Part shown: piece by piece, positions 3,162 to 11,519 of the stretch | Numbering within the stretch: the first letter of the stretch is position 1 | How the letters are laid out: every line of letters begins with the position of its first letter | DNA from: Candidatus Hydrogenedentota bacterium | Lineage (GTDB): Bacteria; Hydrogenedentota; Hydrogenedentia; Hydrogenedentales; SLHB01 | Reading direction: 5' to 3' | Assembly: GCA_016215105.1 (NCBI GenBank) | Contig: JACRLJ010000035.1 | Coordinates: forward strand, 11,259-57,278 | DNA: 46,020 nt | Notes under the pieces: model-generated | Told to the model about the DNA's origin: nothing | Databases searched by the model: none | What the model saw: the letters and a program-made list of their open reading frames with translations, nothing else | Translations under genes and position numbers: made by a program

Positions 3162-3992
3162 ATGAAGTCGATTGCGCTTGTCGCCGCCGGTGTCTTCTGG
3201 ATTGCAGTGCTGGCCGCTGGGATTCCAGCGGCGGCAGAAGACGCGACACCCACAGCGCCCGCCGCAACGGCGCCATCGCCGGCGGCCCCAGCGCCGTCAC
3301 CGGCCGTTCCTGCCGCGAGCGCTGAACCCGTCAAACCCGCCGCGTTGACCGCGACGCCCAGCCACGAACGCCTGACCTTGTGGACCATGATTCAACAGGG
3401 CGGATCGATTACCTGGATTCTCATCGTGATGAGCATCGGGACCTTGGCCCTGTGCATTCACTACTTCATGACGCTGACCCCGGCCCGCGAGGCCTCACCG
3501 GCCTTTCTACGCCGGGCCTTGGCGCAGGTGCGCGCCGGCGATTTGCGAGGGGCCTACCAGATGTGCGAAGACCGGGAAGAACTCCTGCCCAACGTGATTC
3601 GAGCGGGCCTCAAGGCCGCCAGCCATGATCGCTACGTCATACAGGAGGCGATGGAGAGTGAGGGGGAACGAGGCGCCACCGCGCTGTGGCAGAAGATCTC
3701 GTACATCAATAACGTCGGGGTAATCGCGCCGTTGTTGGGCCTCTTGGGCACGGTGGTTGGCATGATCCAGGCGTTCGGCTCGATCGCGATGGACAACTCG
3801 CAGGTACGCCAAATTGAGGTGGCCTACGGCGTGGCCAAGGCGATGATCACGACCGCAGCGGGCCTGTTGCTGGCGATACCCGCGATGATTGCATATTTCT
3901 ACTTCCGTGGCCGGGTCGTCAAGATCATTTCGCAGGTCGAGGCCTACGCAACGGAGATGATTGAAGCGTTGACGCGGGAGCCGAAGGAATGA
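3162..3992 (+). CDS. exbB: MotA/TolQ/ExbB proton channel protein with periplasmic N-terminal extension
   Basis: The 276-residue product has a signal-like hydrophobic start (1-25), an Ala/Pro-rich segment (26-66), and three membrane helices (about 80-105, 181-207, 225-250). The helix 2 motif GLLGTVVGM (193-201) and the polar residues of helix 3 (AKAMITTAAGLLLAIP) are typical of ExbB/TolQ. ExbB pentamers form the stator around ExbD and use proton flow to drive a TonB-type transducer. The long Ala/Pro-rich leader resembles ExbB proteins with a cleaved signal and periplasmic extension rather than the short E. coli form. The start is ATG 3162, with AAAGGAG at 3151-3157; an in-frame upstream start at 3099 lacks a ribosome site. 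It overlaps exbD by 4 nt (ATGA), so the two are translationally coupled. Confidence 0.9.
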   Translation: MKSIALVAAGVFWIAVLAAGIPAAAEDATPTAPAATAPSPAAPAPSPAVPAASAEPVKPAALTATPSHERLTLWTMIQQGGSITWILIVMSIGTLALCIHYFMTLTPAREASPAFLRRALAQVRAGDLRGAYQMCEDREELLPNVIRAGLKAASHDRYVIQEAMESEGERGATALWQKISYINNVGVIAPLLGLLGTVVGMIQAFGSIAMDNSQVRQIEVAYGVAKAMITTAAGLLLAIPAMIAYFYFRGRVVKIISQVEAYATEMIEALTREPKE

Positions 3993-4417
3993 AGTTCGGC
4001 CGACGTCAAATCGAACAGTCGGAAGACATTCAGATGGCCCCACTGATCGACATCGTGTTCATCACGCTGGTGTTTTTTATGTCGACGGGTATCTACGCAG
4101 GAATTGAGAAAGAAATCGACGTCACGCTGCCGACCGCCAGCAATGCCGTGCCGCTCGAACGGACGCGCGGCGAGATCTACATCAACCTGCTAAAGGATGG
4201 ACGCATCGTCCTGAACAATCGCGAGATGACGCTAACGGAGTTGCAGGAGGTCTTGAATCGTGTTGCGGCCTATTTCCCGGGCGGGGCGGTAATCGTGCGA
4301 GGAGACCGCGACGCGAATCTGGGTACGGCCATCGCGATTCTCAATTGCTGCAAGAACGCCGATATTCAAAATGTGATGTTTGCGGCGACGGACGTAGACA
4401 AGGAGCCACCAAAGTAG
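3989..4417 (+). CDS. exbD: ExbD/TolR biopolymer transport protein
   Basis: This 142-residue protein has the usual ExbD layout: a short cytoplasmic N-terminus, one membrane helix (about 17-38) and a periplasmic alpha/beta domain (about 60-135). The essential membrane aspartate is present (D21 in APLIDIVFITLVFF). The periplasmic domain has the expected pattern of ITVxxDGxIxLN-like strands followed by VxxRxDxxxxxG (residues 66-75 and 99-110 region). It starts at 3989 inside the stop codon of exbB and forms the stator with it. No tonB follows directly; the next candidate transducer is the VWA protein at 8069. Confidence 0.9.
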   Translation: MKFGRRQIEQSEDIQMAPLIDIVFITLVFFMSTGIYAGIEKEIDVTLPTASNAVPLERTRGEIYINLLKDGRIVLNNREMTLTELQEVLNRVAAYFPGGAVIVRGDRDANLGTAIAILNCCKNADIQNVMFAATDVDKEPPK

Positions 4418-4505
4418 CGGCTAAGTCAGCACACCGGCAAAGCCGACGGTATGAAGATCAGCCCTAATAGGGGCCTATGTTTGCAGATGGGAGACACGAC
4501 TCCTA

Positions 4506-4624
4506 ACGTGTCATTCTGAGCGATAGCGAAGAATCTACCCCATGCACAGCGGGCGCTCTGCATAGTACGCATGGGCTATCGCACGTTGGCCGCAGATTCT
4601 TCGCTATCGCTCAGAATGACACGT
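4506..4624. repeat. 31-bp perfect inverted repeat with 57-bp spacer
   Basis: 4506-4536 and 4594-4624 are exact reverse complements over 31 bases. The spacer holds a smaller nested pair (CCCATGC near 4538, GCATGGG near 4569). It sits in the 317-bp gap between exbD and the LD-carboxypeptidase gene. A related fragment (CTCAGAATGAC followed by A) occurs at 33232-33242, so the arm sequence is dispersed in this genome. There is no T-run next to it, so it is not a normal intrinsic terminator. It could be a small non-autonomous mobile hairpin. Confidence 0.85.
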
Positions 4625-4734
4625 TTCGCGGACCTTCCAAATAGTTCGCTAGAGAGGTTGAGCCGGTTCAATTCTCACCGGCAGAGCCGGTGGAAGAGTT
4701 CTGATTTCGGTTGACACAAGGTACGGACAATCCT

Positions 4735-5721
4735 ATGGACATCATCGCGCCACCTCGACTCGCGCCCGGCGATGAGATACGCATTGTCACTCCCGCGCGC
4801 AGTCTTGCGGTCACATCGGACACCGTAAGGGATATCGCCTATTCGAGGCTGACCGGCCTCGGACTGCACGTCTCTTTCGGACAAAACGCGAACGAGATCG
4901 ACGAGAGCCGATCGTCCCCGGTCCAATCGCGGATACACGATCTGCACGAGGCGTTTGCAGACAAGTCCGTGAAAGCGGTGCTGGCGGCGGAGGGGGGGTA
5001 CAACACCAACCAGATCTTGTCGTACGTCGATTATCAACTGATTCGGAGGAACCCGAAAGTTTTTTGCGGGTTCTCGGACATTACAGCTTTGAACGATGCG
5101 ATTCTGGCCAAAGCGGGTTTGATGACCTACTACGGTCCGGTGTACTCGAGTTTCGGCGAGCGCGATCATTTCGAGTACAGCCTGGAGCACTTTAGGAAAT
5201 GTGTGTTCGACTCCGCGCCTGTTACCGTGCGTCCGTCCGAAAACTGGAGCAACGACAGGTGGCGCGCTGACCAGGATGCGCGCGCGCTCATTACGAACGA
5301 GGGGTACTGGCCGATCCACGAAGGAGAGGCGCGGGGCACGATCGTGGGCGGAAATCTTGACACCCTCAATTTGCTTCAAGGCACAGAGTTCATGCCGCGG
5401 CTTGACGGCGCAATACTCTTTGTCGAGGACGACTCGGCGACGAGTCTGCCCATCCTCGACCGTAACCTTCAGTCCATATTCCACCTGCCGGATTTCCGGC
5501 GCGTGAAAGCGCTAATCATGGGGCGCTTCGAGAAGGCCTCCAACATCGCACGGGAAGATCTCGAGCGATTGGTACGGGCTAAGAAAGAACTGGGGGCAAT
5601 CCCTGTTGTGGCGAATGTGGATTTCGGTCATAGTGAACCGCGCATTACATTTCCTATCGGCGGAACCGCTTCCCTATCCGTCACGAAGAAAGAAACGACA
5701 CTTGTCATACTCAAGCACTAA
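4735..5721 (+). CDS. ldcA: S66-family LD-carboxypeptidase (LdcA/MccF-like)
   Basis: About 328 residues, the usual length of the family. Cytosolic LdcA enzymes remove the terminal D-Ala from muropeptide tetrapeptides during peptidoglycan recycling; MccF relatives cleave microcin C-type peptides. The nucleophile elbow is CGFSDITALND (Ser about residue 114 from this start). The other two expected triad positions are visible as Glu in FVEDDSATS and His in VDFGHSEPR. The GGYNTNQIL turn before the nucleophile is also characteristic. ATG 4735 is preferred because it matches family N-termini (IIAPPRLAPGDEIRIV); a TTG at 4711 would add eight residues. It ends 16 nt before the TPR gene and probably shares its transcript. 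Its place between exbD and the TPR/VWA genes hints at an envelope-remodelling role for the cluster. Confidence 0.85.
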   Translation: MDIIAPPRLAPGDEIRIVTPARSLAVTSDTVRDIAYSRLTGLGLHVSFGQNANEIDESRSSPVQSRIHDLHEAFADKSVKAVLAAEGGYNTNQILSYVDYQLIRRNPKVFCGFSDITALNDAILAKAGLMTYYGPVYSSFGERDHFEYSLEHFRKCVFDSAPVTVRPSENWSNDRWRADQDARALITNEGYWPIHEGEARGTIVGGNLDTLNLLQGTEFMPRLDGAILFVEDDSATSLPILDRNLQSIFHLPDFRRVKALIMGRFEKASNIAREDLERLVRAKKELGAIPVVANVDFGHSEPRITFPIGGTASLSVTKKETTLVILKH

Positions 5722-5737
5722 ACGGAATCTGCGCGGA

Positions 5738-8059
5738 ATGGTCTGGGCGCTAGCGATCTTCCTGCCGGCGGCGGTGACAGCATCAGCCGCCGAAGAGAAA
5801 CCCGGTGATTCGGACTTTGACTTTGCGAACGGGCTGTTTACGCGCCAGATGTACAAGGACGCCGCGGAACAGTACCGAACGTACCTGGAGAAGAATCCTC
5901 AAGGCGAGCACGCGGCGGCGGCACAGTACCGCCTGGGCGAATCGTTGTACTCGACGCAGGACTACGAAGGCGCTCTGCAGGCGTTGGACGCGTTCCTGGC
6001 GACGAAACCGGACGGCGTCACGCTGCAGCGCGCGCAGTTGCGCCGGGGAGAAGTGCTGTACCGCATGAAACGATACGCGGACGCGCTCGCGGCTTTGGAT
6101 CCCTTGAACGGCCCGGACCACGATGCGCAGGTTCGTTTTGGGGCGTTGTACTACATGGGAATGGCGTACTCCGAAAGCGGGAAGAGCGACGAGGCGCAAA
6201 AGGCGTTCGAACGCGCGATCAAAGAGGTACCGGACAGTCCGCATCTCGCAACCGCGCGGTTTCAATTGGCGACCGCGTATGCCGCCGCGGACAAGTTGGA
6301 GAAGGCCGCAATCGAGTTTTCGGCGGTGGCCGCGTCCAAGGCCGACCCCGCGTTGCGGGCCGATTGCCGTTTTCGGGCGGGGGAGGCTTACGACAAGCTC
6401 GGATGGTACGAGGCGGCCGCCGCGGCTTACAGCCAGTTGAAACAGGAATTCCCTGATTCGGCGCACGTAGGGCAGGCGGACTACGGGTATGCATGGGCAA
6501 TGTACAACGCGGGGAAATACGCCGAAGCGACAACCGCCGCCCAATCGTTCCAAAGCGCCTACCCATCGGACCCGCGATCCGTCGGTATCCAGTATCTTCG
6601 GGCCAATTGCCTCCAACAACAGCGCAAATACGACGAAGCGCTTGCGCTCTACAAGGACCTTCGAGAGCGGCACGCCGACTCCGAGTTTGCAGCGCGCTCA
6701 CAATACAAGACGGCGTGGTGCCTATTCCTGCTTGATAAATTAGACCAAGCGGACACAGAGGTCCGGGAGTTTCTTGATAAGAATGCGGATTCAAGTCTCG
6801 CGGGCGACGCGGCGTTCCTGCGCGGCAACATATTGGCGAAGAAGGGCAATTCCGAGGAAGCGCTCCAGGAATTCCGCTTTGTCGCCGAGAAGCATCCGGA
6901 GAGTGAATTTGCGGCGGAGGCCCTGTTCAAGGCGGGCGAGTGTCTGGCGCAAATGGGACGCACCGAGGAGGCCGCAAAGGCGTTCGAGGCGTTCGCCAAG
7001 CAATATCCCGATAACGTATTGACGGAGCAGGCTATTCTTCGAGCGGGAGACGCCCAATTCTTCGCGGCGGCGTTCTCAGAGGCAATTGAACGCTATAAGA
7101 AGACGCTGGAGGCCAAACCAGGCCCCACAGTGGAGCAGGACGTGCTCTACCGCATGGGAATTACGTACCACAACATGAAGAAATTCGATGAGAGCGCGGC
7201 GGCATATAAATCGTTGTTGGACAAGTTCCCGGAAGGACCGCACGTGGCTGAAGCCCACCTGCGTATCGGCGACCACTTATTGGACGACGTGAAAGATCCG
7301 GTGAAGTCGCTTGACGAATTTCAGAAGGCTTACGATGCAGACCCCAAGGGAGTGTTCGCAGGCCTCGCACTGCGCGGGGCGGCCTTGGCGCGTTATGAGA
7401 CGAAGGACTTGGACGGCGCCGCGGAGCACTTCTACAAGGTCATTACGGAATTCGCGGATGTACATTTGAACGAGGCCACGTACGCGTGGCTTGGACAGCG
7501 CCTGGCCGACCAGAAGAAGTGGGACGAAGCGGCGGCAGTCTTCACGGCCATGTTGACGGCGAATCCGGAATACCCTAATCCGGAGCGGGTGAAGTTCAAA
7601 GTTGCCGAGTGCGCCGAGGCGTCCGGAAAGAGTGACGGGGCCATCGAGCAGTACCAAGTGGTGGTCAACGAGGCGCCGGGCAGCACTCTGGCGGTCGAAG
7701 CGCGTTACCGCATGGCGAAATTGTACGAAGCGGCGAAGCAGCCGGATAAGGCCCTGCCGCTGTACGAAGAGGCCGCCAATACCAATACCGGCGACGCGGC
7801 GGCGAAGTCTCGATTCCGAGCGGGCGAGTTGTATGAAGCAAAGGGAGACTTTGAGGCCGCTGCCAAGAGCTTCATGCGGATCGCCATTCTTTTTGTAAGT
7901 GAAGAGCTTTGCCCCGAATCGCTGTGGCGGGCGGGACAGTGCTATGAGAAGGCGTCCAAGCCGGACCAGGCCAAGAAGACTTATCAGGAATTGGTATCGG
8001 AGTATCCCAAGAGCCCGGCCGCGGCAAAGGCCAGCGAGCGGCTCGCGCAGATCCCGTAG
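5738..8059 (+). CDS. Exported tetratricopeptide-repeat protein (CpoB/YbgF/BamD-like repeats)
   Basis: A 773-residue protein. Residues 1-20 are a signal peptide ending near TASA, and the remainder is almost entirely TPR helices. Many units carry the Y-x-x-G-x-x-Y and A-x-x-x-F-x-x-x-x-x-x-x-P spacing, for example ALFKAGECLAQMGRTEEAAK and YRMGITYHNMKKFDESAAA. Such repeats are found in Tol-Pal-associated CpoB and in outer-membrane assembly scaffolds. The start is set at ATG 5738, which gives a normal signal peptide; earlier in-frame Met codons lie inside the preceding gene. The spacing to the previous stop is 16 nt, and its own stop codon is built into the ribosome site of the VWA gene (TAGGAG at 8057-8062), so the two should be made together. 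Partner and ligand are unknown; I infer a periplasmic scaffold. Confidence 0.85.
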   Translation: MVWALAIFLPAAVTASAAEEKPGDSDFDFANGLFTRQMYKDAAEQYRTYLEKNPQGEHAAAAQYRLGESLYSTQDYEGALQALDAFLATKPDGVTLQRAQLRRGEVLYRMKRYADALAALDPLNGPDHDAQVRFGALYYMGMAYSESGKSDEAQKAFERAIKEVPDSPHLATARFQLATAYAAADKLEKAAIEFSAVAASKADPALRADCRFRAGEAYDKLGWYEAAAAAYSQLKQEFPDSAHVGQADYGYAWAMYNAGKYAEATTAAQSFQSAYPSDPRSVGIQYLRANCLQQQRKYDEALALYKDLRERHADSEFAARSQYKTAWCLFLLDKLDQADTEVREFLDKNADSSLAGDAAFLRGNILAKKGNSEEALQEFRFVAEKHPESEFAAEALFKAGECLAQMGRTEEAAKAFEAFAKQYPDNVLTEQAILRAGDAQFFAAAFSEAIERYKKTLEAKPGPTVEQDVLYRMGITYHNMKKFDESAAAYKSLLDKFPEGPHVAEAHLRIGDHLLDDVKDPVKSLDEFQKAYDADPKGVFAGLALRGAALARYETKDLDGAAEHFYKVITEFADVHLNEATYAWLGQRLADQKKWDEAAAVFTAMLTANPEYPNPERVKFKVAECAEASGKSDGAIEQYQVVVNEAPGSTLAVEARYRMAKLYEAAKQPDKALPLYEEAANTNTGDAAAKSRFRAGELYEAKGDFEAAAKSFMRIAILFVSEELCPESLWRAGQCYEKASKPDQAKKTYQELVSEYPKSPAAAKASERLAQIP

Positions 8060-8068
8060 GAGCGGTCC

Positions 8069-9844
8069 ATGATCAGACGGCGACATATTCTAGCCCTGAG
8101 CATCGCCGTATCCCTGTGCCTTCACGGGACCCTACTCGCGGTGTCGCCCCGGATCGGGCTCATGGCCGCTCCGTCGCGCGTCTCTCCGGCAAAGAGCAGT
8201 TTTCGCGTCCAATTGCGCGACGACATCCCGATAAAGCTGGAAGCGCCTGGGCCTGCGGCAAAGAAGGGCAGCGGCTCGCCAGACCTGCTCACGTCGCGCC
8301 CGGAGTCGATATTGGACTTGCTCAAGCGCGAGACGGAACGATTGAAGCCGTCGAAATCCATGGTAGCGCAGCCGGGCGACGCCTCGCATGTGGTTGAACG
8401 CGCCGTGGCGGAGCCGGTACACCGCGAGCACGAACTCCAGCCCGAACCGTCGGTGAGCCAGGGCGTAGACGCGCAGATTATCGCGATATCCGAGGATGCC
8501 GCGCGCAAGGACATCGCGGCCCCTCGGCGTTTGGTGTCGCCTGTATCAACCCGAATACTCGCGGAAAACGAAACGCCCGTGATGACAGGCGGCGCGCAAC
8601 CGCTGCGTCAGGAAGTCCTGTCTATCCCTCCGCTGTGGGCGGACTCCGGGGCAACTAACGCGGATGAAGCGATGGATGTCTCAGAGCCGCCGCCATTGGT
8701 CGAGAAGCCTGCTCCGGAGTTGGAACCAATTCCGCCGACTGTTACCGCCCCGTTGGATGAGATCGCGATCGCGCCAAGCCCGGCCTTCGAAGAGGTACAG
8801 AAGGATCGTAACTACGAGTTCATGGATGATCTGCTATCCATAACGTTGGATACGTACAAGCCCTCGGGTGAGAAAGAGGCCTTCTTCCGCATCCGGATTC
8901 AGCCCAAACAAGACGGCAAAATCGAGATCCTGCCCAAAGACGTAACCTTCGTTATCGACGCATCGAGCAGCATCATCCAACGCAAGCTGGACATGACGGC
9001 GGGGGGGGTAAAGGACGCCATCAAGACGTTGCGTCCGGAGGACCGCTTCAACGTCGTGGTGTTTCGGGACACGGCCACGCTATTCCAGCCGGCCCCAGCG
9101 TTCGCGACACGCGAAAACAAGACTGCGGCGGAGGCATTTGTAACCGGCCTGAAGTCCTATGGGGAAACCGACGTATTCAAAGCACTCAGCGCGGTGCTTC
9201 AGGAGCCGACCCGGCCCGGCATCCCGGACATCGTGTTGTTGATAACAGACGGGCGGCCGACTGCCGGTATGAAAGACGGACGAACCATCATCAACACCCT
9301 TACGGAACAGAATGCGGGAGGTCACGCGATCTTTGCTTTCGGCGGCGGACCCACGGTCAACCGCTACTTGCTTGATCTATTGGCGTACCGGAATAGAGGC
9401 GAATCCGAGGCCGCGCAAAAGATCGAAAGCATGAACCGCGACCTCGTAAAGCTTTTCTCGAGTACGAGCGATCCGATTCTATCGGAATGCGCGGCTAGTT
9501 TTGCCGGCATCGGCGCGCGATCAAAGGAAATCTACCCGCGGGAAATCCCAGACTTTTACAGCGGCCGGGCGGTGACCCTGTACGGACGCTTTGATCCGTC
9601 AAAGGACAAGGAGTTCTCGGTGCGCCTGTCAGGGCTGGCGGGACCGCGCAAGAAGGAAGTGATTTTTCGGGCGGATCTCAAGAAGGCCGGCGCGGCCGAC
9701 CTGGAGTTGGCGCGGAATTGGGCGTTCAACAAGATCTACTTTCTGATCGGCGAAATGTGCCGCGTGGGGGAGAAGCCCGAACTGCTGAACGAATTACGCG
9801 AGTTGAGCCGGAAGTACAAGATCAAGACGAGCTATGACGGTTAG
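8069..9844 (+). CDS. TonB-like membrane-anchored VWA protein (candidate ExbBD-driven transducer)
   Basis: 591 residues. Basic residues (MIRRR) precede one membrane helix, IAVSLCLHGTLLAV, in which S15 and H19 reproduce the SxxxH pattern of the TonB anchor (E. coli S16/H20), the part of TonB that couples to ExbBD. Residues about 40-245 are a low-complexity spacer, Pro/Glu-rich at 205-240, comparable to TonB's periplasmic rod. Residues about 290-465 are a von Willebrand A domain with a full MIDAS: D297-x-S299-x-S301, T367 and D394 (LLITDG). A beta-rich tail (490-591) resembles C-termini of inter-alpha-trypsin-inhibitor-like VWA proteins. No TonB C-terminal domain is present. The ribosome site TAGGAG overlaps the TPR stop. 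Alternative: a Bat-type VWA protein, but those lack this anchor signature. Confidence 0.85.
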   Translation: MIRRRHILALSIAVSLCLHGTLLAVSPRIGLMAAPSRVSPAKSSFRVQLRDDIPIKLEAPGPAAKKGSGSPDLLTSRPESILDLLKRETERLKPSKSMVAQPGDASHVVERAVAEPVHREHELQPEPSVSQGVDAQIIAISEDAARKDIAAPRRLVSPVSTRILAENETPVMTGGAQPLRQEVLSIPPLWADSGATNADEAMDVSEPPPLVEKPAPELEPIPPTVTAPLDEIAIAPSPAFEEVQKDRNYEFMDDLLSITLDTYKPSGEKEAFFRIRIQPKQDGKIEILPKDVTFVIDASSSIIQRKLDMTAGGVKDAIKTLRPEDRFNVVVFRDTATLFQPAPAFATRENKTAAEAFVTGLKSYGETDVFKALSAVLQEPTRPGIPDIVLLITDGRPTAGMKDGRTIINTLTEQNAGGHAIFAFGGGPTVNRYLLDLLAYRNRGESEAAQKIESMNRDLVKLFSSTSDPILSECAASFAGIGARSKEIYPREIPDFYSGRAVTLYGRFDPSKDKEFSVRLSGLAGPRKKEVIFRADLKKAGAADLELARNWAFNKIYFLIGEMCRVGEKPELLNELRELSRKYKIKTSYDG

Positions 9845-11519
9845 GACAGCGCCCGTGCTGACAGTTGCAGACTGGCTCCAACGTCTCGATGGCCAGGATA
9901 CGGAAACCCGCAAGTCGTTGGCGCGTATGTACGGCGCAAACCAGTCCGTCGTTCAAGACCGTGTCCGGCTGACGCGTCTTGTCCTCACGCGATTTGGCGA
10001 GCGCTTCGGCGATGCTCCCGTGAGGGTGTTCCGGTCGCCGGGCCGCATAAACCTGCGCGGCATGCACGTGGATACGCACGGCGGATATATTAATCTGATG
10101 ACCCACCAACGCGAGGTCGTAATCGCCGCGGCGCCTTCCGAATATGACGAAGTGCGCATCGCCAATTGCGACGATTCATTTTCCGAAGTAACGTTCCGTA
10201 TCGGAGAATTCTCATCGCACACGGCATTTTCCGGAGAGTGGAACTCGTTCATCTTGAGCCCGGACGTTCACAATGCCGTTTGGACGCGTCGCGGACATTG
10301 GGGCAACTATCTTCAAGGCTGCGTATTAAGCGCACAACACCGTTTCCGTGATACACCCCTCCGCGGGATGCGGGCGGTGGTGGGCAGCGATCTGCCTCGA
10401 GGCGCCGCGTTGAGTTCATCCGCCGCGTTGTCGGTCGCGTTGCTGAAGGCAGTTCTCGGCCTCAACACAAGAACCCTATCAACGGACGAGGCAATTCTTG
10501 CGGTTCGGGATGCGGAATGGTACGCGGGATCTCGTATCGGTGTGAGCGATCAGGCGGCCATGCTCTTGGGGGGCAAGGACACGCTGGTAAACACGGCGTT
10601 ACTTGCCAGCCGTCTGGACACATCGTCCGCGCGGCGTATTCCGTTTCCCGACGCACTGCGCATACTGGTGGTCAATTCGTACACCGAGCGCAGTCTGAGC
10701 GGCGCCCAACTCGTGGAATACACCCGCAACCGTTTCGCGTATTCGCTGGCTCTGGACATTCTCCGCCAAGAGATGCGCGCCGATGGCCTTTCCGGAGATG
10801 CGGTCAGCGAAATGGACTGCCTGGCCGCCATCACCGCGGATGCGTTCGCGAGCCATGGCGGCGTGAGCGTTCTGTACCGCTTACTACGCCGCGTGCCACT
10901 TCACGCATCACTTTCCGAACTCAAACGGCGATACGATCTGCCCGCGTTCGACACGGCTTACGCAGATTTCTTTGGGACTGTTCCCGTCGAATCGCGACCC
11001 GAGGAAATCGATCTTCGGGGTCCGCTCATGTTCGGAATCGCAGAATCAGAACGTGCGCGGCTGTTTCCCGAGGCATTGGAACAACGCGACTTTGTGCGCG
11101 CGGGCCGTTTGATGTCGACGGGCCACAACGGGGATCGGCGAATCACGGGGGCCGGCCAGCCGTATCGCTACGATGTGAGTGACGCGGCGATGGAGCATCT
11201 CGCGGCGGAAGGCGCGCCCATCGAATGGTGTCCCGGGGTGTACGGCGCCAGCAGCCCGGTCTTGGACACGCTGGTGGATGAGGCGTTGGAAGCGGGCGCG
11301 CTGGGGGCGTGCCTGACCGGCGCGGGCATTGCAGGCGCCGTGCTTGCCCTGTGTCACGCGGAGGACGCCGAGGGCGTGGCAGAAGCGATTCGCGCGCGTA
11401 TGGCTCGGCCGGATTACGCGAAGCTCACCAATAGGGAAGCGCCCTTGACCGAGGCCGAGCTTTCCGGCGCGGTCGTGGTGAATTACGCTACGGCGGGAGC
11501 GGGGGAATTGGTACTATAG
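9834..11519 (+). CDS. GHMP sugar kinase, galactokinase-like with altered sugar-binding loop
   Basis: 561 residues, longer than GalK (about 380-400). GHMP motifs are all visible: the substrate loop SPGRINLRGMHVD (68-80), the ATP-binding LPRGAALSSSAALS (187-200), the catalytic-base region GVSDQ (D239), and the C-terminal glycine motif CLTGAGIAGAV. In GalK the loop reads GEHTD, where the Glu contacts the galactose 6-OH; here it is GMHVD, so the glutamate is methionine (M77). The C6 group is probably different, for example a carboxylate (galacturonate/glucuronate) or an N-acetyl sugar; this is inference. A segment of about 110 residues (290-400) is inserted before the last domain. The start overlaps the VWA stop by 11 nt, indicating co-translation. 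The PL22-like gene next door supports a uronate substrate. Confidence 0.8.
   Translation: MTVRTAPVLTVADWLQRLDGQDTETRKSLARMYGANQSVVQDRVRLTRLVLTRFGERFGDAPVRVFRSPGRINLRGMHVDTHGGYINLMTHQREVVIAAAPSEYDEVRIANCDDSFSEVTFRIGEFSSHTAFSGEWNSFILSPDVHNAVWTRRGHWGNYLQGCVLSAQHRFRDTPLRGMRAVVGSDLPRGAALSSSAALSVALLKAVLGLNTRTLSTDEAILAVRDAEWYAGSRIGVSDQAAMLLGGKDTLVNTALLASRLDTSSARRIPFPDALRILVVNSYTERSLSGAQLVEYTRNRFAYSLALDILRQEMRADGLSGDAVSEMDCLAAITADAFASHGGVSVLYRLLRRVPLHASLSELKRRYDLPAFDTAYADFFGTVPVESRPEEIDLRGPLMFGIAESERARLFPEALEQRDFVRAGRLMSTGHNGDRRITGAGQPYRYDVSDAAMEHLAAEGAPIEWCPGVYGASSPVLDTLVDEALEAGALGACLTGAGIAGAVLALCHAEDAEGVAEAIRARMARPDYAKLTNREAPLTEAELSGAVVVNYATAGAGELVL

Follow-up and report, generated by a model that had tools for sequence, protein, structure and literature searches.

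A conserved exbB-exbD-TPR-VWA gene cluster that probably encodes a force transducer driven by the proton motive force

The gene cluster considered here lies within a 46,020-nucleotide stretch of DNA from a Candidatus Hydrogenedentota bacterium (the window) and raises the question of what an ExbB-ExbD motor drives when the membrane-anchored protein encoded in the same cluster ends in a VWA module. The first-pass annotation of this DNA proposed a proton-driven transducer, and the comparisons reported here make it probable that the cluster encodes a trans-envelope force transducer driven by the proton motive force, in which a TolQR-like motor would pull the VWA protein. The idea is not new: VWA proteins with a TonB-like anchor, TolQR-type motors and an adjacent TPR gene were proposed in 2025 by Williams-Jones et al. 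(PMC12204202), whose proposal of "vWA force transducers" rests on synteny and AF3 models only (PMC12204202). The features on which the present argument draws are as follows.

3162..3992, + strand: exbB, 276 aa, ExbB/TolQ-like motor subunit (Pfam MotA_ExbB, 1.5e-29)
3989..4417, + strand: exbD, 142 aa, ExbD/TolR-like motor subunit (Pfam ExbD, 5.4e-20)
4735-5721, same strand: LD-carboxypeptidase (S66) (Pfam)
5738..8059, + strand: TPR protein, 773 aa, exported, CpoB/YbgF-type repeats (Pfam TPR_6, 5e-67)
8069..9844, + strand: putative VWA transducer, 591 aa (Pfam VWA_3/VWA)
8111..8125, + strand: SxxxH anchor motif, VWA residues S15 to H19 (alignment)
8201..8215, + strand: motor-box-like strand FRVQL, VWA residues 45-49 (homologue alignment)

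Pfam bears out the identity of each of the five open reading frames. The 4-nt overlap between exbB and exbD, the TPR and VWA genes, the SLCLHG anchor and a complete MIDAS were all found where the first-pass annotation had placed them. The VWA protein comprises a transmembrane anchor, the F45-L49 strand, a disordered linker at about 50-250 and an ITIH-type VWA plus C-terminal module at 260-591. A galactokinase-like GHMP kinase (9834-11519) overlaps the end of the VWA gene; it is found 3' of the VWA gene in most loci of the window's phylum and was not detected at the Omnitrophota loci read.

Homologues of the VWA protein are present in 55 of 60 related genomes. A profile search recovered them in 57 of 62 genomes of the window's phylum with a completeness of 80% or more, a count that includes one genome (G009) matched only via a VIT-VWA paralogue, and in 22 of 193 sampled genomes of Omnitrophota, where a few of the 22 matches are not of the anchored type. 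The linkage of exbBD to the TPR and VWA genes on which the original proposal depended is retained in related genomes: the order and strand of exbB-exbD-TPR-VWA are kept in 55 of 56 loci, counting anchored VWA loci with no less than 4.3 kb of upstream sequence from two little-studied phyla, Omnitrophota and that of the window. The sole exception is an Omnitrophota locus (L119) in which TPR and VWA genes are present and exbBD was not detected within about 6 kb upstream. Spacing is tight, with an exbB-exbD gap of no more than 30 nt in 59 of 61 loci and a TPR-VWA gap of no more than 60 nt in 54 of 61; in every complete locus the TPR gene lies downstream of exbD and upstream of the VWA gene, and each of 64 loci (64/64) encodes exactly one ExbD. 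The system's nearly universal occurrence across the window's phylum is suggestive of a core machine of the envelope, and the cells concerned are already equipped with Tol and Ton transducers. At two loci (L070, 10173-12169; L127, 7674-9519) the VWA gene is split over two frames, reflecting either a frameshift or an assembly error.

The anchor of the VWA protein (MIRRRHILALSIAVSLCLHG) contains S15 and H19, which are the only invariant residues among the first 70 when the window is compared with six Omnitrophota homologues of 26-29% identity. This agrees with the earlier description of a TonB-type SxxxH anchor; the other half of the TonB SHLS motif, L27/S31, shows no conservation in VWA anchors. 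The accompanying expectation that serine and histidine would be conserved across homologues holds only in part. Histidine occupies position 19 in 22 of 22 Omnitrophota, but the residue is tyrosine in 29 of 77 homologues and glutamine in 1 of 77, the tyrosine-bearing sequences forming a large clade with a matching change in ExbB. The pairs at positions 15 and 19 over the 77 readable anchors are SH (42), SY (12), AY (8), TY (8), AH (4), TH (1), GY (1) and AQ (1), such that S15 is often replaced by alanine or threonine where position 19 is tyrosine or glutamine.

Beyond the helix, a short strand-like motif of the FRVQL type begins 26 residues past H19, an offset shared by 60 of 77 homologues, and residue 47 within it is hydrophobic (V/I/L) in 77 of 77. 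The ISVTMV motif of E. coli TonB starts 25 residues past H20, a near-equal distance from the histidine that is one of the likenesses to the Ton system. A "motor box" has been described for TolA and TonB in general (PMC12204202), and a crystal structure shows the TonB peptide AQPISVTMVTPADLEPPQA, which holds the motor-box motif, bound to the ExbD dimer (PMC10771500). AlphaFold2 (seven sequences) places a transmembrane helix at 2-28 and a folded part from about 247, with a mean pLDDT of 54; it models the linker at 30-246 with low confidence (pLDDT below 50) and predicts no strand at VWA 45-49. The linker is rich in proline (13%) and glutamate (11%), as the first-pass annotation had noted. Because the segment from D134 to P170 (window about 8468-8578) is conserved within it across the window's phylum, the linker does not appear to be a mere spacer, and the TPR protein might dock on this stretch.

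The motor itself appears to be intact and of the Tol rather than the Ton type. Scored against NCBIfam models, ExbB is nearer to TolQ (102 bits for tolQ versus 52 for exbB), and ExbD scores closest to TolR. ExbD D21 corresponds to E. coli D25, the proton-carrying aspartate, and is kept in 63 of 63 homologues; ExbB T197 (E. coli T148) is retained in 61 of 62 and T231 (T181) in 62 of 62, while the position equivalent to E176 is not conserved. In E. coli cryo-EM structures, ExbB S34/W38 is touched by TonB S16/H20, and TolQ S28/W32 by TolA S18/H22 (PMC12215075). A TolQ profile search and three MAFFT modes agree that S91 of the window ExbB is the counterpart of E. coli ExbB S34 and TolQ S28, overruling a phmmer alignment to Serratia ExbB in which TM1 is shifted. 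The position equivalent to W38 is occupied by L, F, I or V, not by tryptophan.

Residue 91 of ExbB covaries with residue 19 of the VWA anchor. The observed pairs (VWA 19 with ExbB 91) are H with S in 32 cases, H with G in 4, Y with G in 24, Y with A in 1 and Q with G in 1, and Y with S in none. Among about 1,700 columns from four proteins, ExbB 91 ranks first for association with histidine versus tyrosine, and the adjacent ExbB 92, which is phenylalanine in the tyrosine species, ranks second. On a tree built from ExbD, the TPR protein and the VWA module, the pattern traces chiefly to a single serine-to-glycine replacement in ExbB at the root of one clade (local support 0.73), where the H-to-Y change also falls; the minimum number of changes is 6 for VWA 19 and 3 for ExbB 91, and histidine reappears on the glycine background three or four times. 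A claim of many-event coevolution was therefore dropped, as the tree gives about one main shift. Position and rank make the covariation strong, and the small number of independent events makes it weak; it supports, but does not prove, a contact between the VWA anchor and ExbB.

Shared ancestry of a single clade could also account for the joint S91G and H19Y changes, in which case the covariation would be silent on contact. The one substitution at the clade base and the small total at ExbB 91 are in keeping with such an origin, which we regard as possible rather than probable since ancestry alone would have to place the top-ranked column on the very ExbB site that touches the TonB histidine by cryo-EM (PMC12215075) and to leave tyrosine never paired with serine. 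It is compatible with the force-transducer explanation, from which it would remove one support. The covarying pair coincides with the motor-transducer contact and thereby constitutes independent sequence evidence for coupling in vWA force transducers, and VWA S15/H19 together with ExbB S91 offers a ready mutational test. In the tyrosine clade the motor-binding histidine is replaced, with glycine and a new phenylalanine at the ExbB site, and these species may couple without the canonical histidine, a tentative reading whose chances we place a little short of even. Were it true, it would argue that the histidine is a structural contact and not a proton carrier.

At the other end of the protein, the MIDAS residues D297, S299, S301, T367 and D394 are conserved among homologues, in the order DxSxS...T...D, in 78/78, 78/78, 78/78, 78/78 and 77/77 sequences, respectively. 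This invariance argues for metal-dependent binding by the VWA module. The closest solved relatives in a PDB profile search are the inter-alpha-inhibitor heavy chains ITIH H4 (3e-39) and ITIH H1 (1.3e-35), and the best Foldseek match is 6fpy (ITIH H1, 3.5e-19). In NCBIfam, the module also matches the latter half of the marine sortase-target VIT-VWA model (TIGR03788), below the cut-off, and E. coli YfbK can be aligned over the VWA core only. In common with ITIH heavy chains, VIT-VWA proteins and TIGR03788, the VWA domain is followed by a beta module and C-terminal helices; unlike them, the protein has no VIT domain and instead carries a membrane anchor and linker. A Pfam search found no TonB_C or TonB_2 domain (PF03544/PF13103) in the VWA protein, as the first-pass annotation had reported. 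A separate protein of the VIT-VWA type is encoded elsewhere in the window's genome, at locus L104 (contig C160, about 79615-80577), and its VWA half is distantly related to that of the transducer.

The TPR protein scores 279 bits against the NCBIfam tol_pal_ybgF model (cut-off 90). It begins with a hydrophobic stretch for export, which inspection by eye predicts to be a Sec signal peptide, and only 2 of 70 TPR proteins have a lipobox-like N-terminus.

Bat loci typically pair VWA proteins with TPR neighbours. The VWA protein could on these grounds be a Bat-type, MoxR-associated stress-tolerance protein, or else a static periplasmic adhesin, that merely resides in the operon of a motor, and the TPR protein does match the BatC model weakly, at 70 bits, far under its cut-off of 175. 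Such a reading is unlikely, as it does not explain why the VWA gene is so strictly linked to exbBD, nor the SxxxH anchor, the motor-box-like strand and the covariation at ExbB 91, and it sits poorly with the ITIH-like VWA module and with a four-gene unit that contains no MoxR gene. Pfam found none of the Bat operon genes (BatA/BatB, MoxR ATPase, BatC-E) among the genes of the window's cluster, and a Bat operon was ruled out.

The Tol-like character of the motor and of the TPR repeats, which score as CpoB/YbgF, could equally mean that the VWA protein functionally replaces TolA or TonB in this lineage, and a published Tichowtungia case lacks a recognisable TolA/TonB (PMC12204202). The window's genome, however, encodes a TolA-like protein (TonB_2) adjoining TolB on contig C46 and two more TonB-type proteins adjoining exbB genes on contigs C21 and C98, each with its own His-bearing anchor. 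With both kinds of transducer present elsewhere in the genome, replacement is disfavoured and we consider it very unlikely; the VWA system comes on top of them as a further transducer. The same genome also contains, near a DnaK gene (L103, 8326-9974), an ExbB gene followed by two different ExbD genes with no adjacent VWA gene.

Set beside the known systems, the cluster fits the published vWA force transducers in their described features. Shared features are a transmembrane helix with TonB-type Ser/His, a disordered linker with a motor box, a VWA C-terminal domain and adjacent TPR and tolQ/tolR-like genes. The cluster differs in encoding a single ExbD where the published system has two, in the length of its linker (about 200 residues against about 100), in a VWA and C-terminal module resembling an inter-alpha-inhibitor heavy chain, and in a tyrosine variant of the anchor; it is found in the window's phylum and in Omnitrophota, the latter a phylum not named in PMC12204202. 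Unlike the Tichowtungia case, the window's genome also has TolA/TonB. With the Ton system (ExbB-ExbD-TonB) the cluster shares 5:2-type motor genes and the S/H anchor, whereas a VWA tip replaces the TonB C-terminal domain, a TPR partner gene is present and ExbB W38 is not conserved. The resemblance to Tol-Pal (TolQ-TolR-TolA-CpoB) lies in the subunit and TPR scores; a Pfam search of the window cluster turned up neither TolB nor Pal nor a TolA domain, and the TolA-TolB pair sits elsewhere in the genome.

The force-transducer reading thus draws on gene linkage, the anchor, the motor-box-like strand, intact motor residues, the covariation, the MIDAS and published precedent, and it is weakened by the variability of H19, the roughly single main covariation shift, the absence of the Trp38 equivalent and the lack of conservation of L27/S31. 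In the mechanism that we propose, ExbB and ExbD would form a TolQR-like inner-membrane motor, and the N-terminal helix of the VWA protein would dock on TM1 of ExbB via S15/H19, as occurs with TonB and TolA. The ExbD dimer would then grip the short FRVQL strand after the helix, and its rotation would pull on the flexible linker. Force would pass through the ITIH-type VWA module, which may hold its partner by the MIDAS metal, and the exported CpoB-type TPR protein, an obligate neighbour, would be the most likely partner or adaptor. As to the role in the cell, envelope or peptidoglycan maintenance would be our guess.

The LD-carboxypeptidase gene, which the first-pass annotation had counted in the cluster, does not belong to the conserved unit. 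It occupies this position in the window only and is missing there from every other locus read, and it was ruled out as a component of the system. The interval between exbD and the LD-carboxypeptidase gene contains a perfect 32-bp inverted repeat whose arms are separated by a 57-nt spacer (window 4505-4625). Given its restriction to the window and the repeat element upstream, the LD-carboxypeptidase gene looks like a local insertion. The element, about 140 bp in length, is REP/MITE-like, and the genome contains dozens of copies of it, full-length or partial.
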